This document shows, in pieces, positions 3,500 through 34,215 of a DNA stretch of 34,215 bases. Source of the DNA: a virus. The first letter of the stretch is position 1, and every line of letters starts with the position of its first letter. Location: positions 1 to 34,215 of the IMG/VR virus record IMGVR_UViG_3300043219_000127. One strand, 5' to 3'. The notes under the pieces are model-generated. The model was not told the DNA's origin, made no database searches, and saw only the letters and a list, made by a program, of their open reading frames with translations. The position numbers and the translations under genes are program-made.

Positions 3500-6400
3500 T
3501 TAACTTGGGTCTGTGTTAGTTGCGCTTTGAATAAATGTTGCTGATAACTGTAATGTTTCTCCGTTTGTCATACTACCTGTTATGTTTATAATTTCACCAG
3601 ATACGGTAAATAATATTGTAACCACCGAACCATCAAGTAACCCTGCTATCTGAATATTAACATCTGGTCTTGACCCTATCGGTAATACCATAAATGGAGT
3701 ACCTTGATTAACAGTTGTTGTAATGTCAACATCAAATAGTCCAGACAATAAAGTTCCAAACGCTCTTACGTTAGTTAAGCCACCATCACTTGTATCTCCA
3801 TCGAATCTAGGTGTGATAACTATTCCATCTTGTAAATCTACAACGTCAGCTTTAATTACTACGATATCCGCTTCAACGTCATCTAATCTTACTTCTTGGT
3901 TATCACTATCTTTTTGTAATTCTTTTATGTTGTCCGTGTGAGTTTCTACTTGACCTATTAAATCATTGTTGAATTGTATCGTAACCTCAGTACTTAATCC
4001 AGTTTGAATAAGTGTAGTAGGATTCTCTTGTATCAATCCACCATCTTTATCAATGTCAGTATATACCGCTTCATCTAATTCATATGTGAATGTTACGTCG
4101 TTTGCTTGTAAGTAAGTTTCAAAGTCTCCCGTATTTGCATATGTTGTTTTATTTACTCTAATCCATAACTTCCCATCAGTATTCATACCTATTAAGTTTT
4201 CTATATCATTTGAAAAGATATAGTCAGCCGTTTGTAATGAGAAAATAATGTTACCTATTTTTAAACTAATGTTTGCTAACACGTTTGATGCTGAAACTAT
4301 TTTGTATAACAATGATGAACTTATATCTTTGTTGAATGTGTGAGTTACAGTTTTAACATCTCTAATACCCCAAGTAGTCTCGGCTTGTAATATATCATTG
4401 AAATCATATCCTACATTTTGCTCTAACTTCCATACACCGTTATCTTGGTATATTCTATCTCGTATATCGCCAACACTTCGTAATGTAGTGTTAGGGAATG
4501 AGATTGTATCACTGTTATATGGTGCGTATGTTGTTGCTACTGTGCCTTGTTCTAATTGAGTATTTTCAAGATAGTTTAGTCCTTCTTGGAATTGTGATAC
4601 TCGTAAATAATGTGTGTTTGCTCCAGTTGTAAATGTTGCTGATTGTACTATTGTTCTTATAATGAAATTCTTATCTTTATCATATTCAATAAGGAACAAG
4701 TTATTTTGATTACCGAAGTATGATGTACTTGGAGACACGCTAATATAATCTGGACTATATTCACTTGTTGCATCTGCTGTAATCGTACCAGTAAACCCAT
4801 AATAACTTCCCTCTATAATTCCACTCTTATCAAACATATTCTTACCGATAGATTGCACGGATAAGTCTACGATTGATTTTGTATCTTCAAAGTATGATGA
4901 GATTATGTTGTTAAGTTGTGATGCTGTGTGTGATGCGAGTGGTGTGTTGGTAATGTCAAATAATGTAACTCCTACCACTTCATCTTTGTTGAATGTTCCA
5001 CTTGTTCCTACGCTCTCTTGGAATTTAACATTTGCTAATAGTGTTTTTGTTGCTGTGATAAGTCCAAAGTTAGTAGGTGTTGTTAAGTCCGCTCCAGTAC
5101 CTATTGATGTATTACTACCATCACTATATTGAATTAAGATACTATTACTTAAATTAACGTGCGTTCCATCTTTAAATCCTATTCTAATGAAGTAAATATG
5201 TCCTGTAACTGCGTTAAATGTAAATGATGCTCCATCATATGAATTGGTAAATGCGAACGTTCCATCAACTTTAATGTTAAATTGTGTACCACTTCCATCA
5301 CTAACTAAACTTGCCGTAGCATCTCCATTTATTAACGGTTGTGTTAATGATAATCCTAATCCTTCTATGAACTCTGGACTACCCTCACTTGGAGATAACA
5401 CACCAAATGTACTTTCGTGTAGTTCGTCAACAGTGAATGAGGTTTGTACTCCACTATCTAATTTAGCAATAAAGTTTGTGCCATCAAACTGCATTTGTAT
5501 TAATTGTTCACTTACTGATTCTGCATATACCGAAGTTCCATTTACTAATACTGGATAATAAATAGTTCCGTTATCCGTTGATAATTGCAATGGATTTGTA
5601 TTACTTGTAATCACTGGGAACAGCACAAATACAATTTGTTGATTCTCTTGTGTTTTAATATTAACTTTATAATTACCTAATGTATCTAAAATTAGATCGT
5701 GATAAGTTAATTCTGCTGCTTTATAAGAACCAAGCCCATTACTTTTATAATCTGCTGATGCTACAAATGAACCTGTTGCTGCGTTTGCACCTGCATAAAT
5801 TTCATTAAGTGAAATCTTTCTTGGAACTCCATTATCATTAATATACACATCTGTTAGTTCGTCATCGACCACCGAAGCTGCTGCGATTGGTGGATATGTT
5901 GTATCGTTAGATAAATCTTTTTCAACAACTTCCCCAGTTAATTTAGTAAGTTCAGCCTCGCTTAGATGGAATCTTTCAGTTGAGTTACCACCTTGAAGCC
6001 CAGCTAAGTCATTATGTAACGTTTGTAACGGTGTATCAATATGTGAAGCGTTTTCCGTTCCACTATGAACCATTGTTATAGTTGGATTTGCTGCACTTGT
6101 TGTATGACCATAATACTTAATAACTAATCTGTCAGTTGCTAAGATTGTAAATTCTGGTTGTACTGAAATAATACTATATAATTGATTAACTGAATTGTTG
6201 ATTTCTTCTGTTTGAGATTCAAACAATAATGTTTCTGTTCCTCCAGTTACTCTTTTGTAAACTTTGAATTTAATAATTGTTGTACCATTTGAACTTGATA
6301 CTCTTGCATATGTTTCAAAATTCCAAGTTCCTGCTTCTATTTTAGTTCTTCCTAATACTTCGGTTGCATAAGGGCTTATCAATGTGTCAGTTGATGCACT

Positions 6401-18072: not shown

Positions 18073-19473
18073 TTATTCTCGTATAACTGGTTTACTGCTA
18101 TTTGTCTTTCTCATCATATATGCGGTGTAAGGTGCTTGTCCGTACTCTACACCATCTACTCTATCTTTATGCTTATGTTCTTTAAATCCTCGTATATCAG
18201 TCTTTGATGTTGTTACATAGAATGCTTTGGTAAACGACTCATATATAGGTGTTGTTCTGTTAGTGAATAATAATCTACCTTGATCGAGTAATGTTTGTCC
18301 TGCTTCTATTCTATCAATGATTGTATACTTATACGCTTTATAACACCTTAATCCAAAGTGTAGTTTCAATCTTGCATCCATTGTCAATCTCATTATCTTA
18401 GCTGCTGCATCTATGAAGTCTCCTTTAATGTGCATTGAGTATCTTTCATAGTATGGCGTGAACCATTTAACGAATGCATCCCATATTTGGTCGTGGTTGA
18501 TATTATTAACTTCAAAGAAATCAACTACTATATGGTGATTGAAATTTCTTGTAAAGACGTTTAATGTAAGTACGTTGTTATCTGTACCACCTACATCTTG
18601 TCCTATTGTGATTATCTCTAATCCGTGTTTGTTAAGGAACTCCATATCGTTTACATTATCTGATAACATATCTAAATGGATAATATTCTTTTCTCTTGTC
18701 ATGTAGTCTGCATATATTACACCTTCACGTATTCCTCTTATACCAAGTATTTTAGTTTGCCATTGGTACGAGCCTTTAGGTGTATTCTCAATTAACTTCC
18801 TTCTATCTTCCATTGTCATAGTAGGGTTGTCATCAAAGTTAAAAAAGTAATATACAAAGTCTTCGCTCTCTGGACTACGTTCTAATTCTTTGATAGTCTC
18901 AGGCGGTACTTGATGTTTGTATTTGTCTGTTGGTCTCCCTTTATTTAAGTGGTCCGTGTATACTGGTGTATCTGGGTCTCCTCCATTTGATGTAGCATAT
19001 AGGAATCCACCGTTCCTAAATACACGAATAAACAACTCACTTATAAAGTCGTTGTCTGCTATGTTAATCTCTTCTATGTTAAATCCATATATTGTTAAAC
19101 CTAATATGTCACTCCAACGTTTCTTGTTATCATAACCTGATAGGTATATTATCTTGTTTGGTTTTACCCCTTGCATATCTATAATAATCTTTGCTCCACC
19201 TTGTCCTGCATTTGTATACGTGCAGATAGGTTTGAATATGTTATAGAATGAATCAGGGTTCTGTATATACATCTTTTCTAATACTGGTAGCGATTTACCA
19301 CCTAGAAAGAATTGTGTGTGTGTATCTGGTGTTTCCATTATTCGTAGTATAAATGATATGCCAAATATAAATGACTTACTAGAGTTAGTTACGCCTTCAC
19401 CAAATATAACCTGGTGTCTATCTTTAATAAGGTCTCTATGCTTCTCTAATATTAACACTTGATCTAATGTCAT
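18073..19473 (-). CDS. terL: Terminase large subunit, 466 aa
   Basis: This is the ATPase-nuclease motor for DNA packaging. Residues 25-34 (GEGVTNSSKS) are a variant Walker A of the terminase type. FNIEEIN near 131-137 is the Walker B/catalytic acid region, and FLYATSNGGDP (157-167) the coupling segment. In the C-terminal nuclease, GQDVGGTDNN puts an acidic residue at 293, and KGDFIDAAAK (350-359) and DRIE (387-390) are candidate metal ligands. The length is typical. The ATG overlaps the TGA of terS (ATGA). Confidence 0.9.
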   Translation of the reverse strand: MTLDQVLILEKHRDLIKDRHQVIFGEGVTNSSKSFIFGISFILRIMETPDTHTQFFLGGKSLPVLEKMYIQNPDSFYNIFKPICTYTNAGQGGAKIIIDMQGVKPNKIIYLSGYDNKKRWSDILGLTIYGFNIEEINIADNDFISELFIRVFRNGGFLYATSNGGDPDTPVYTDHLNKGRPTDKYKHQVPPETIKELERSPESEDFVYYFFNFDDNPTMTMEDRRKLIENTPKGSYQWQTKILGIRGIREGVIYADYMTREKNIIHLDMLSDNVNDMEFLNKHGLEIITIGQDVGGTDNNVLTLNVFTRNFNHHIVVDFFEVNNINHDQIWDAFVKWFTPYYERYSMHIKGDFIDAAAKIMRLTMDARLKLHFGLRCYKAYKYTIIDRIEAGQTLLDQGRLLFTNRTTPIYESFTKAFYVTTSKTDIRGFKEHKHKDRVDGVEYGQAPYTAYMMRKTNSSKPVIRE

Positions 19474-26344: not shown

Positions 26345-26509
26345 CTATTTTCCTACTTTCAATGCTTCTTTTAACTTCTTCATGTTATCTTCGTTTGGTT
26401 GTGTAACTCCTTGTTCCCAATTACGAATAGTATTAAGACTAACGTTACATTCTATACCTAGTCTTGCTTGTGTGATTCCTAGTTCAGTTCTTCGTTTTTT
26501 AATGTTCAC
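26345..26509 (-). CDS. Short XRE-type regulator with GTG start, 54 aa
   Basis: ORF with GTG start after AAAGGAGTGATATA: MNIKKRRTELGITQARLG... then SLNTIRNWEQGVTQPNEDNM. This is a complete HTH of the XRE/Cro type (helix-turn-helix about 11-32, with the 'NWEQG...P' signature). The gene is first after a strong promoter whose -35 lies in a 6+6-bp palindrome, so autoregulation is likely. It is short for a repressor and has no oligomerisation domain, more Cro-like. Confidence 0.8.
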   Translation of the reverse strand: MNIKKRRTELGITQARLGIECNVSLNTIRNWEQGVTQPNEDNMKKLKEALKVGK

Positions 26510-26530
26510 TATATCACTCCTTTCATAAAC

Positions 26531-26559
26531 ATTATATCATACACTTGGTTGTTGTGCAA
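26531..26559 (-). promoter_or_regulatory. Promoter of the replication/methylation operon
   Basis: Minus strand TTGCAC (26554-26559), 17 nt, TATAAT (26531-26536), with TGA before the -10 (extended). It shares AAGTGTATGATATAAT with the promoter at 21680-21708. Confidence 0.8.
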
Positions 26560-26562
26560 CCA
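26546..26562. promoter_or_regulatory. Palindromic operator candidate
   Basis: TGGTTG (26546-26551), five bases, CAACCA (26557-26562) is a perfect 6+6 palindrome that covers the -35 element of the promoter in front of the short XRE gene. It is a natural site for that regulator or the XRE protein at 31687-31884. Confidence 0.55.
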
Positions 26563-26576
26563 CCAATAAGAGGTAA

Positions 26577-26600
26577 ATAAAAAGAGGCGATTAACCTCTC
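26577..26600 (-). terminator. Intrinsic terminator after the 29-aa gene
   Basis: On the minus strand AGAGG pairs with CCTCT around a seven-base loop (TTAATCG), then TTTTTATTT. It follows the 29-aa membrane peptide gene and ends the upstream operon before the next promoter. Confidence 0.75.
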
Positions 26601-26690
26601 TTATCTTAAACTCATTTGCATAGCCCATAATGCGTATATACAATATGATATTACTAGGGTGGCTAGGGCTATTAATATTTTACGTTTCAT
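26601..26690 (-). CDS. Single-pass membrane micropeptide, 29 aa
   Basis: ORF MKRKILIALATLVIS...ALWAMQMSLR with a strong site (GAGGAGGCAACC) before the ATG. A basic start and one hydrophobic helix (about 5-24) make it a membrane peptide. The start lies in a junction module identical to the one before the 76-aa gene at 23550, and the terminator lies directly after its stop. Function unknown. Confidence 0.65.
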   Translation of the reverse strand: MKRKILIALATLVISYCIYALWAMQMSLR

Positions 26691-27114
26691 TGGTTGCCTC
26701 CTCGTGTATGTTGCCTATTACTTCACAATCTAACACACAAAATCCGTAACCTAATTCCATAAAAATAACCTCTTCCTCTAATGTCCCGTCTTCACTATAT
26801 TCAGTTGTTTCTCCTTCGCTATCCTCAAAATAAAACCCTGTTAGTCCATTCCAAGAACCATCATATCCTATCTTTCCAAACTTTACAATTCTTCTACTAG
26901 ATAACTCATCAACGATATCTCCCTCGTAAATTTCTACACCGTTCTTATCTTTTAATCCAGTGAACATTTCAACGATATGTAATTTACTGTCGTCTCTCCA
27001 TATTCCATCAAGTTTATATTTTCTAAACAACTTTCCGCTTGGAGTTAGTGACGTTTCTTCTTTCTCATATTCTCGTTGGTCTATACACCATACTCTAAAT
27101 TTAATTTCTCTCAT
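26680..27114 (-). CDS. YopX-like phage protein, 144 aa
   Basis: The opening REIKFRVW, the centre FTGLKDKNGVEIYEGDIV (about 51-68) and the end EVIGNIHE are the YopX family signature, here with a longer middle than usual. YopX-like proteins are common in phages of Gram-positive bacteria; their function is unknown. The ATG overlaps the TGA of the upstream 58-aa gene. Confidence 0.88.
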   Translation of the reverse strand: MREIKFRVWCIDQREYEKEETSLTPSGKLFRKYKLDGIWRDDSKLHIVEMFTGLKDKNGVEIYEGDIVDELSSRRIVKFGKIGYDGSWNGLTGFYFEDSEGETTEYSEDGTLEEEVIFMELGYGFCVLDCEVIGNIHEEATNET

Positions 27115-31686: not shown

Positions 31687-31884
31687 TTACTCACTTACCT
31701 TTCTATATATATTTAATATACGTTTTTCGCTAACTCTAAATGCCTTTGCTAATTTGATAACTTCGATTGCACTTGGTACCGCACCGTTATCTAACCTTGA
31801 TATACGTGCTTGTGATACATCAATCCTGTTCGCTAGTTCTTGTTGCCTAACTCCTTTTGCTTGTCTTAATTCTTTAAATGTCAT
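31687..31884 (-). CDS. XRE-family transcription regulator, 65 aa
   Basis: The ATG at 31884 (MTFKELRQAKG) follows AGGAGGTG; an upstream GTG is part of that site. HTH at about 12-33 (VRQQELANRIDVSQARISRLD), with the VPSAIEVIKLAKAF follow-on helix. It is Cro/repressor-like. It is first in the leftward domain and divergent from the rightward promoter, so it probably controls one or both. Confidence 0.9.
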   Translation of the reverse strand: MTFKELRQAKGVRQQELANRIDVSQARISRLDNGAVPSAIEVIKLAKAFRVSEKRILNIYRKVSE

Positions 31885-31904
31885 TTCTAACACCTCCTAT
31901 CCAT

Positions 31905-32454: not shown

Positions 32455-32760
32455 ATGAAATGTAACAAATGTGGAAGTTACGAAATAAAGCATTATCTTA
32501 ATGGTAAAATAAAATGTTGTAAATGTAATGAAATTATCAGAACCATTAAAGAACATAAATACCAACAAAGATTAGATAAGGTATTAAGTAAGTTTGACGA
32601 CAAAACAAAAAAATGGAAATATTTAGAATATCATTTAGGTTATGAGGTGTATATGCAATATGTAGCTAAAACATTTTATTTACAAGCAAACAACTGCGAA
32701 CACATTCTATCACTTGACACAGTTGAATCACTTATCAAAGACTTGGAGGAAACAAAATGA
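32455..32760 (+). CDS. Zinc-ribbon protein, 101 aa (paralogue of 27284-27667)
   Basis: Two cysteine pairs: CNKC (3-6) and CCKC (21-24). KYQQRLDKVLSKF (35-47) matches the 127-aa protein on the minus strand. The C-terminal part is helical with no motif. GAGGAGGAATGAGAA precedes the ATG. The 97-nt gap before it holds no convincing gene. Confidence 0.8.
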   Translation: MKCNKCGSYEIKHYLNGKIKCCKCNEIIRTIKEHKYQQRLDKVLSKFDDKTKKWKYLEYHLGYEVYMQYVAKTFYLQANNCEHILSLDTVESLIKDLEETK

Positions 32761-33155
32761 CAACTTACTATATTAAACGAGGAAAGTATTACATTCAAGA
32801 AACGAACAAAGAGGGACAATTTAATTCAGTATTAAGCAAGGCACAAGCAACGGAGTTTAGTTCGCTAGACACGTTAGAATCTTACGTTACACGTGATATG
32901 AAATTAAATCTAGCTAAGGTTACAGTTGAAATGGAAACAGTGGTTACAGTTGAATTAAAGAATATAAAAGGATCGTGGCTAGACACATCAGAAATCGAGC
33001 AATGTAGCGTATGCCTTAAATGGTATCCAGTTGTATCGTTAATACCTAGTGTGCTTGATAGAGAAAAAGGTATAGAGTTATTATGTGAATCGTGCGAAGC
33101 GGATGCAGATGTAATTATATCTAATCAACCTTTAGATGAATTGGAGGAGTTATAA
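32757..33155 (+). CDS. Treble-clef-type zinc protein, 132 aa
   Basis: CSVC (83-86) and CESC (110-113) form a probable zinc knuckle in the C-terminal half. The N-terminal half is beta-rich (YYIKRGKYYIQETNKE). The tail LDELEEL is the coding side of a GGAGGAGTTATAATG junction. Function unknown. Confidence 0.75.
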   Translation: MTTYYIKRGKYYIQETNKEGQFNSVLSKAQATEFSSLDTLESYVTRDMKLNLAKVTVEMETVVTVELKNIKGSWLDTSEIEQCSVCLKWYPVVSLIPSVLDREKGIELLCESCEADADVIISNQPLDELEEL

Positions 33156-33307
33156 TGTTAGCAATGAGAATTATAGCAACTGTATTATTAACGATTAAAT
33201 TATTAATTGGTTGGGGATTATTGATAGATAGCGGAGACATTAATGATGATGGAGCCTCACTAGGTTTAGGAATGATATTCTGTATCGTAACTGTTTGGGT
33301 AATTTAA
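33155..33307 (+). CDS. Small two-helix membrane protein, 50 aa
   Basis: ORF MLAMRIIATVLLTIKLLIGW...GMIFCIVTVWVI starts in a TAATG overlap with GGAGGAG upstream. Two helices flank a polar SGDINDDGAS turn. It ends at the start of the 331-nt gene-free stretch that holds the RNA candidate. Confidence 0.7.
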   Translation: MLAMRIIATVLLTIKLLIGWGLLIDSGDINDDGASLGLGMIFCIVTVWVI

Positions 33308-33310
33308 TAT

Positions 33311-33339
33311 TTGATATAGAACATATGATATGATAGTAT
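33311..33339 (+). promoter_or_regulatory. Candidate promoter of the structured RNA
   Basis: TTGATA (33311-33316), 17 nt, TAGTAT (33334-33339); the -10 matches 4 of 6. It would start transcription near 33345. TATGAT and TATAAG, overlapping alternatives, lie nearby but are badly spaced. Confidence 0.5.
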
Positions 33340-33344
33340 AAGAG

Positions 33345-33583
33345 TAGGACATACCGAACGTTAAATGAGAAATGGTTGAAGAAGCCATAACGAATAGGCT
33401 ATATGCAGATTTGTAAAAAGTCGGATGTCACAACTTATCCCTTACAGTGAATAGTTATGGCAACCTTGAGTTCTTATTACGGATAGGAACCTCGCAAGAT
33501 AATTTATTCACCATCCCCTTAAGACCTACACGAATGTCGTTGTAGGCACACATTAGAAAGACTGGATTCGGTCTTTCTTTTTT
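33345..33583 (+). ncRNA. Structured non-coding RNA candidate, about 240 nt
   Basis: No protein gene fits this stretch, but it has extensive pairing. GACAT(A)CCGA (33348-33357) pairs with TCGGATGTC (33421-33429), closing a domain that holds the hairpin 33373-33387. GTGAATAGTTAT (33447-33458) pairs with ATAATTTATTCAC (33499-33511). Inside that, CTTGAGTTC (33465-33473) pairs with GAACCTCGCAAG (33487-33498). The 13-nt loop contains GGATAG, which can pair with TTATCC (33435-33440), a possible pseudoknot. A third hairpin (33525-33546) has nine pairs and one bulge. A terminator ends it. It does not match tRNA, tmRNA, RNase P or 6S features I know. Confidence 0.7.
33555..33583 (+). terminator. Strong intrinsic terminator of the RNA candidate
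   Basis: AGAAAGAC (33555-33562) pairs with GTCTTTCT (33571-33578), extendable by two pairs, followed by TTTTTT. It is the clearest terminator in the window. Confidence 0.9.
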
Positions 33584-33584
33584 A

Positions 33585-33613
33585 TTGAGTTATATATATC
33601 TGTATGGTATACT
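33585..33613 (+). promoter_or_regulatory. Promoter of the last rightward segment
   Basis: TTGAGT (33585-33590), 17 nt, TATACT (33608-33613). It begins two bases after the terminator T-run. It gives the RHH-like gene and all downstream genes through 1786 an independent start. Confidence 0.7.
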
Positions 33614-33638: not shown

Positions 33639-33797
33639 ATGAAACGTAAACAAGTACCATTTTTAATTAGTGAAGAAGAAGAGTTAGACATTAAAGAGAT
33701 TGAGCAACATTTCAAACGAGATGGACGAAACGATACTCTCCGCTACTGTGTATCAGTGGTTAAGGATATTGTTAAGAAAGAGAAGGAGGGGAAGTAG
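33639..33797 (+). CDS. Ribbon-helix-helix-like protein, 52 aa
   Basis: ORF MKRKQVPFLISEEEELDI...RNDTLRYCVSVVKDIVKK. A beta-like start followed by two helices with the 'R.DTLRY' element resembles small ribbon-helix-helix DNA-binding proteins. ATAGGAGGTGTTTACAT precedes the ATG. First gene after its promoter, so it may regulate the operon. Confidence 0.65.
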   Translation: MKRKQVPFLISEEEELDIKEIEQHFKRDGRNDTLRYCVSVVKDIVKKEKEGK

Positions 33798-34028
33798 ATG
33801 ATAATCAATGTTACAATTAAAGATTCAAAAGGAAACGACTTAAATATAGGAGATACAGTAAGTGTTTATAATTGGCATACGAAAAGACCAAGAGACTTAT
33901 TATATGTTGGAGTTGTTGAGTTTGATAAAGATGAAATGCAATTAGAGATTCAACCTAAAGATGGATACTTTGATATAGACCAATATGATTTATGGCTTAA
34001 AGCATATAAGATTAAGGAGGAGTTATAA
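33798..34028 (+). CDS. Small SH3-like barrel protein, 76 aa
   Basis: INVTIKDSKGNDLNIGDTVSVYN, then LYVGVVEFDKDEMQLEI, looks like an SH3-like barrel ('G..v.vG..V.'). Its stop (TAA) overlaps the ATG of the zinc-ribbon membrane gene in a GGAGGAGTTATAATG junction. Starts right after the TAG of the 52-aa gene. Function unknown. Confidence 0.7.
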   Translation: MIINVTIKDSKGNDLNIGDTVSVYNWHTKRPRDLLYVGVVEFDKDEMQLEIQPKDGYFDIDQYDLWLKAYKIKEEL

Positions 34029-34215
34029 TGGAGAAATGTAACTGTGGCAGTAATGAAGAAATAAAGAAGGAATATACTATTACTATAAAAGGATTAACGG
34101 TAACGAGTGATAGAATGTTTTGTGGTAGTTGCGGAGAGTTAAAGTATAACTATTTACTTGATGAAGAATTTAAAAAGAAGTTAGAATCAAAGAAGAAGTT
34201 TGTTAAAGAAAAAAA
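34028..34215 (+). CDS. YgiT-like zinc ribbon membrane protein (5' part; continues at 1)
   Basis: ATG 34028 (MEKCNCGSNEEIKKEY...) is the real start of the gene whose remainder lies at 1-800. The sequence is in frame across the junction: 29 residues are added before the internal Met at 27. This part supplies the first cysteine pair (CNC, residues 4-6), without which the zinc ribbon is incomplete. The ribosome site is AAGGAGGAG. Confidence 0.9.
   Translation, partial: MEKCNCGSNEEIKKEYTITIKGLTVTSDRMFCGSCGELKYNYLLDEEFKKKLESKKKFVKEK
34089..34215. repeat. Terminal direct repeat, right copy
   Basis: Identical to 1-127. See the left copy. Confidence 0.95.

Follow-up and report, generated by a model that had tools for sequence, protein, structure and literature searches.

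Between two short ORFs of an uncultured phage lies a gap of 331 nt, which raises the question of whether it holds a structured RNA with a transcription unit of its own and, if so, how much of that RNA is kept between phages. The gap belongs to IMG/VR record IMGVR_UViG_3300043219_000127, which was analyzed over its whole 34,215 bp (here called the window), and extends from the stop of a 50-aa ORF (ends at 33307) to the start of a 52-aa ORF (33639). The first-pass annotation had described it as gene-free, and this was borne out, as no credible ORF was found in the 331 nt. The sole relative, L002, was reached via a neighboring 132-aa protein (69% identity) in IMGVR_UViG_3300033153_003551, whose parent record is here called G001.

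Since the ends of both genomes overlap, by 127 bp in the window (a direct terminal overlap, with 1-127 equal to 34089-34215) and by 114 bp in G001, both look like complete circular assemblies. The genes of the window include those for the portal (phrog_533), a head protein, a scaffold, the small terminase subunit, a Rad52/Erf-like annealing protein, SSB, a DnaD-like helicase loader and DNA methyltransferases, mostly on the minus strand. The RNA region lies in a plus-strand gene cluster that opens at about 32.0 kb, beside a divergently oriented HTH regulator (31687-31893), and ends at about 1.8 kb on the far side of the circle junction. An ORF beginning at 34028 crosses the junction into 27-800 and encodes a 286-aa membrane protein. 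A 466-aa ORF (18073-19473, minus strand) occupies the position of a large terminase, with the small terminase subunit on one side and the portal on the other; no PHROG or Pfam match was found for it at E 0.001. Several observations concern the two genomes rather than the gap. Window positions 26353-26701, between listed genes, match G001 4539-4888 at 73% identity, and this stretch carries a small ORF (26345-26509, minus strand) that is common to both phages. The plus-strand gene at 32455-32760 shares 39% identity with a G001 gene on the opposite, main operon strand, and two short DNA matches (88-95%) relate window 32560-32765 to G001 5085-5048 and 4923-4869, which points to a gene moved or duplicated between operons. 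On the minus strand of G001 (L026), at about 30164 and 25808, two hairpins, with stems CGTAG/CTACG and GTCG/CGAC, share the pentaloop GCTCA and stand just 5' of the Shine-Dalgarno sequences of two genes; this pair, absent from the window, is possibly a translational operator.

The DNA match between the window and L002 covers 33302-33429 (89% over 128 bp). It starts just 5' of the -35 element of a predicted promoter and stops at the last base of a predicted closing stem, P1 (33429), and the flanking genes differ, the upstream one being unrelated and the downstream one alike in its first residues only. A promoter, a strong terminator and a second promoter had been proposed for the gap; all three were located, and the same three elements are present in L002. 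The first promoter is of the sigma-70 type, with TG before the -10 element and an expected start at about 33343-33347; its L002 counterpart, TTGATA-17-TAATAT, is 94% identical over 32 bp. Because the counts of promoter-like sites in the scan were close to the shuffled expectation (6 versus 4.0 +/- 2.2, near chance), the promoter claim rests on conservation in L002 and not on the scan. The terminator scan gave one site versus 0.4 expected. At the corresponding place L002 has a terminator with an 11-bp stem, which starts 8 nt past P1, so that a terminator is kept in both phages though its sequence has diverged. The predicted RNA is about 240 nt long in the window and about 125 nt in L002. The features of the locus are as follows.

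33311-33339, plus strand: promoter (TTGATA, 17-nt spacer, TAGTAT), from the scan and conservation in L002
33343-33429, plus strand: conserved 87-nt structured core, 88.5% identical in L002, with z-scores against shuffles of -3.0 (window) and -2.6 (L002)
33348-33357, plus strand: P1 5' arm, GACAU(A)CCGA, from pair probability, with 18 of 18 paired P1 bases unchanged in L002
33358-33371, plus strand: J1/2 single strand, ACGUUAAAUGAGAA, with one difference in 14 nt from L002
33372-33388, plus strand: P2 hairpin, AUGGUU-GAAGA-AGCCAU, with a GNRA-like pentaloop of boxB type and 17 of 17 bases identical in L002
33390-33414, plus strand: P3, a weaker hairpin, with four outer and two inner pairs common to L002
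33421-33429, plus strand: P1 3' arm, UCGGAUGUC, on the same basis as the 5' arm; the L002 DNA match ends at 33429
33430-33552, plus strand: variable 3' tail, which folds in the window and is absent from L002
33555-33585, plus strand: intrinsic terminator, with a 10-bp stem (33555-33578), a 4-nt loop and a T-run
33585-33613, plus strand: second promoter, for the downstream genes (TTGAGT-17-TATACT), from the scan; L002 has TTGAGT-17-TATAAT
33639-33797, plus strand: downstream 52-aa ORF, of which the first residues only resemble the L002 gene at the same place

In the predicted fold of the core, P1 is a closing stem with one bulge; it encloses a purine-rich single strand, the hairpin P2 with its GAAGA pentaloop, and P3. 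P1 corresponds to the long-range stem proposed earlier (33348-33357 with 33421-33429), which held up well: pair probability is 0.92-0.94 at eight of the nine pairs and 0.70 at the innermost one, and the paired bases are kept in L002, the bulged purine being A33353 in the window and G in L002. Conservation is highest in a 24-nt invariant stretch made up of the strand AUGAGAA and P2 directly after it; neither genome has a second GAARA hairpin with six stem pairs including two G-C pairs. P3 in L002 shows one change from G-U to G-C and loses some pairs. Folding was compared with that of shuffled sequences, as the first-pass annotation had suggested, and both RNAs folded below their shuffles, with z of -2.6 for the window RNA with its terminator (5/200) and -4.4 for the complete L002 RNA (0/200). 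The 5' domain of the window alone gave z of -3.0 (8/1000) and the 3' half alone -2.0 (32/1000).

The 3' half fared differently in the comparison of the two phages. The stretch from about 33431 to 33550, which carries a 12-pair stem, a nine-pair stem and a third hairpin (about 33524-33547), is absent from L002. Its 12-pair stem (33447-33458 with 33499-33511), which encloses an inner hairpin, folds in silico with pair probabilities of 0.60-0.98, as had been proposed, but none of the three elements has comparative support, and these predicted stems are private to the window phage. The tail also carries unpaired C-rich motifs near 33435-33445 and 33512-33523. A six-pair pseudoknot between a hairpin loop and an upstream single strand, the remaining part of the earlier architecture, was not found in a search for helices of at least six pairs between largely unpaired stretches; the sole extra helix from that search joins 33465-33470 with 33518-33523 and has two G-C pairs. 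Since the L002 terminator follows 8 nt after P1, the whole 3' half is either dispensable or replaced, and this early terminator and the limits of the match together define the unit as an 87-nt 5' core with a variable 3' tail. The claim of a separate structured RNA unit is supported for the 5' 87 nt, for which promoter, fold and terminator layout are kept in L002, and not for the larger architecture.

Next, the conservation of the core was compared with that of nearby shared genes. Over 87 columns, the core differs from L002 by eight substitutions and two single-base gaps (88.5% identity), whereas identity at third codon positions of these genes is 64% and 63% (Fisher p 6e-5 and 7e-6 versus the core). 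With four-fold sites as the reference, one gene showed a weak contrast (p 0.36) and the second a moderate one (p 0.007). The differences favor unpaired over paired positions with the structure taken from either sequence (p 0.04 and 0.05). With two sequences, which show no double-sided change and one compatible one-sided change, covariation speaks neither for nor against the fold. Identity also reaches 92-94% in other blocks of the two mosaic genomes, so recent exchange could account for the high identity of the core. The only frame across the core, encoding the short peptide MVEEAITNRLYADL, was rejected as a gene: it lacks a Shine-Dalgarno sequence, and a 1-nt deletion shifts the frame in L002. 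Homologues that keep an ORF in place of the stems, which the first-pass annotation had named as a refutation, were accordingly not observed. The locus carries a predicted promoter and terminator of its own with no conserved ORF, by which it qualifies as a putative independent small RNA.

The region had been described as unlike the standard phage RNAs, and the searches agree with this. Over the whole window, nothing reached the gathering threshold among 4227 Rfam families (including tRNA, tmRNA, 6S, RNase P, T-box, phage pRNA, riboswitches and ribozymes). A permissive search gave one chance miRNA match (E 4, opposite strand), and ARAGORN found neither a tRNA nor a tmRNA. Neither the region nor the core had a real blastn match in phages or plasmids; ten matches to Enterococcus phages cover chiefly the promoter stretch (E 0.4). 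Five patterns searched over viral contigs, each requiring 16-22 exact bases so that homologues below about 80% identity could escape, recovered L002 only; the other matches lay in unrelated, mostly coding sequence, with covariance-model E values of 0.2 or worse. Genome contigs searched with one pattern and with one protein-alignment scan for the neighboring protein pair gave nothing, and the covariance model detected no third member among the fetched loci. Relatives reached via protein 32757-33155, the portal and the membrane protein amounted to one genome and short fragments lacking the RNA; tblastn of three proteins (phages or plasmids) and of 32757-33155 (phages) gave no match. No second copy of the core was found in either genome. 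A resemblance to the hammerhead ribozyme noticed by eye (GAUGAG...CGAA) was dismissed, the consensus core positions not being kept and Rfam giving no match. A CRISPR-repeat mimic, a type III antitoxin and a retron RNA were also dropped; the region lacks direct repeats, and the scanned genes include no reverse transcriptase.

Taken together, these observations give about an even chance to the reading that the locus encodes an independently transcribed, structured phage small RNA, with a core of the protein-binding type and a replaceable 3' tail, acting in trans. This small-RNA reading is supported by a promoter-core-terminator-promoter layout that the two phages share despite different genes immediately on either side, and by a conserved block that spans from just before the -35 element to the last base of P1 between non-homologous adjacent genes. 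It is also favored by the identity of the core relative to third codon positions, the placement of the differences at mainly unpaired sites, and folding below shuffles. A protein-binding core is suggested by the 24-nt invariant stretch centered on a hairpin with a GNRA-like pentaloop, a loop class recognized by phage N peptides in boxB RNAs (PMC12550061). A host or phage protein would recognize the core through the P2 loop and the preceding strand, and the transcript may hold or titrate this protein in trans. Through its unpaired C-rich motifs in the window phage, the replaceable tail may in addition pair as antisense with Shine-Dalgarno sequences. Nothing specific pointed to the earlier suggestions of a role in packaging, ribosome binding or superinfection control. 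The reading is weakened by the family having two members, the lack of covariation, the weak four-fold contrast, the 92-94% blocks and the lack of a common antisense target, and the complementarity between the P1 5' arm and a terminator arm leaves room for a role in cis.

That complementarity underlies the main rival, a cis-acting leader resembling an attenuator or riboswitch, which we consider possible but unlikely. The P1 5' arm would pair either with the P1 3' arm, in which case the terminator forms, or with the 3' arm of the terminator, allowing read-through to the downstream plus-strand genes. Consistent with such a switch, the 3' arm of the L002 terminator, UCGGUAGUC, is nearly the same as that of P1, UCGGAUGUC, and its duplex with the P1 5' arm reaches -11.9 kcal/mol, compared with -10.7 for P1; in the window six of these pairs remain, with UUCGGU (-7.3 to -7.4 kcal/mol). 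The best of four pairings exceeded permuted terminator stems at p 0.005 in L002 and 0.046 in the window, but the pairing was found post hoc and the terminators are partly homologous in appearance, so these p-values are not independent. Moreover, P1 and the terminator can form together, and forcing the alternative fold therefore costs 8.1 kcal/mol in the window and 10.1 kcal/mol in L002; any such gate would also be circumvented by the conserved second promoter that immediately follows the terminator. An element that modifies RNA polymerase, of the HK022 put or lambda nut type, appears decidedly improbable. Here the nascent core would bind elongating RNA polymerase, directly or with a factor, and the enzyme would then pass the adjacent and later terminators. 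HK022 put suppresses termination independently of factors, through the beta' zinc-binding domain. HK022 putL lies just downstream of PL and spans about 70 nt, and putRNA folds as two stem-loops and is present twice per genome (PMC9378689). Like putL and putR, the core is a phage RNA element of about 70-90 nt placed directly 3' of a promoter, within a few bases of the expected start, and followed by a terminator and then genes. Unlike them, it has a predicted closing stem enclosing two hairpins and a single copy per genome. As for nut sites, the P2 pentaloop hairpin (U-GAAGA-A) is of the boxB loop type bound by N peptides; however, neither the core nor its surroundings gave a boxA-like site, no small ORF rich in arginine and resembling N was conspicuous, and nut sites lack such an elaborate closing stem.

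The locus might also hold no functional RNA, its promoter and flanking sequence being of recent common origin or exchange and its structure due to chance. Two genomes only, their mosaic character with other blocks at 92-94%, and the lack of covariation would fit this. Against it, the limits of the block coincide with the promoter and P1, the differences are mainly at unpaired positions, both sequences fold below shuffles and the terminator is kept despite sequence divergence, so that we hold it to be markedly unlikely. An antisense small RNA, with unpaired C-rich motifs acting on Shine-Dalgarno sequences and the core serving only as a stabilizing 5' structure, seems very improbable. RsaE and FsrA are small RNAs of Firmicutes with C-rich motifs of this kind. 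The 3' part of the window RNA resembles them in its unpaired UCCC motifs and differs in that these are not conserved in L002 and that Rfam gave no match. Within the window RNA, CUUAUCCCUUA and CAUCCCCUUAAG are mostly unpaired, and the C-rich part of L002, GCCCUCCC, forms one outlier duplex with a gene start (-18.5 versus -13.4 +/- 2.2). Nevertheless, the C-rich tail is not conserved and is half paired in L002, the conserved part being the core. Most best energies against phage gene starts fell within the spread of shuffled RNAs, the two outliers belonging to L002 only, and no gene-start target is common to both phages. Phage small RNAs with their own transcription unit, such as OOP, sar, VpdS and PreS, are short transcripts, and those of known function are antisense or Hfq-dependent base-pairing RNAs (PMC12197685). 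The small-RNA reading agrees with these examples in a short transcript with a promoter and a terminator, here predicted, and departs from them in that its conserved part is structured and the search for antisense partners gave none.

Overall, this is probably an orphan phage small RNA, previously undescribed, forming a two-member family in which both members come from uncultured phages. It is rather unlikely, though conceivable, that the core represents a novel type of phage RNA regulator. In that case a compact, closed RNA bearing a boxB-like hairpin would act at the terminator of its own transcript, by exchange between P1 and the terminator arm or by action on RNA polymerase, and would gate a phage operon without a known factor family. 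Functionally studied phage small RNAs come mostly from phages of enterobacteria and vibrios (PMC12197685). With a minimal core of 87 nt and a natural pair of phages with and without the 3' tail, the roles of core and tail become testable.
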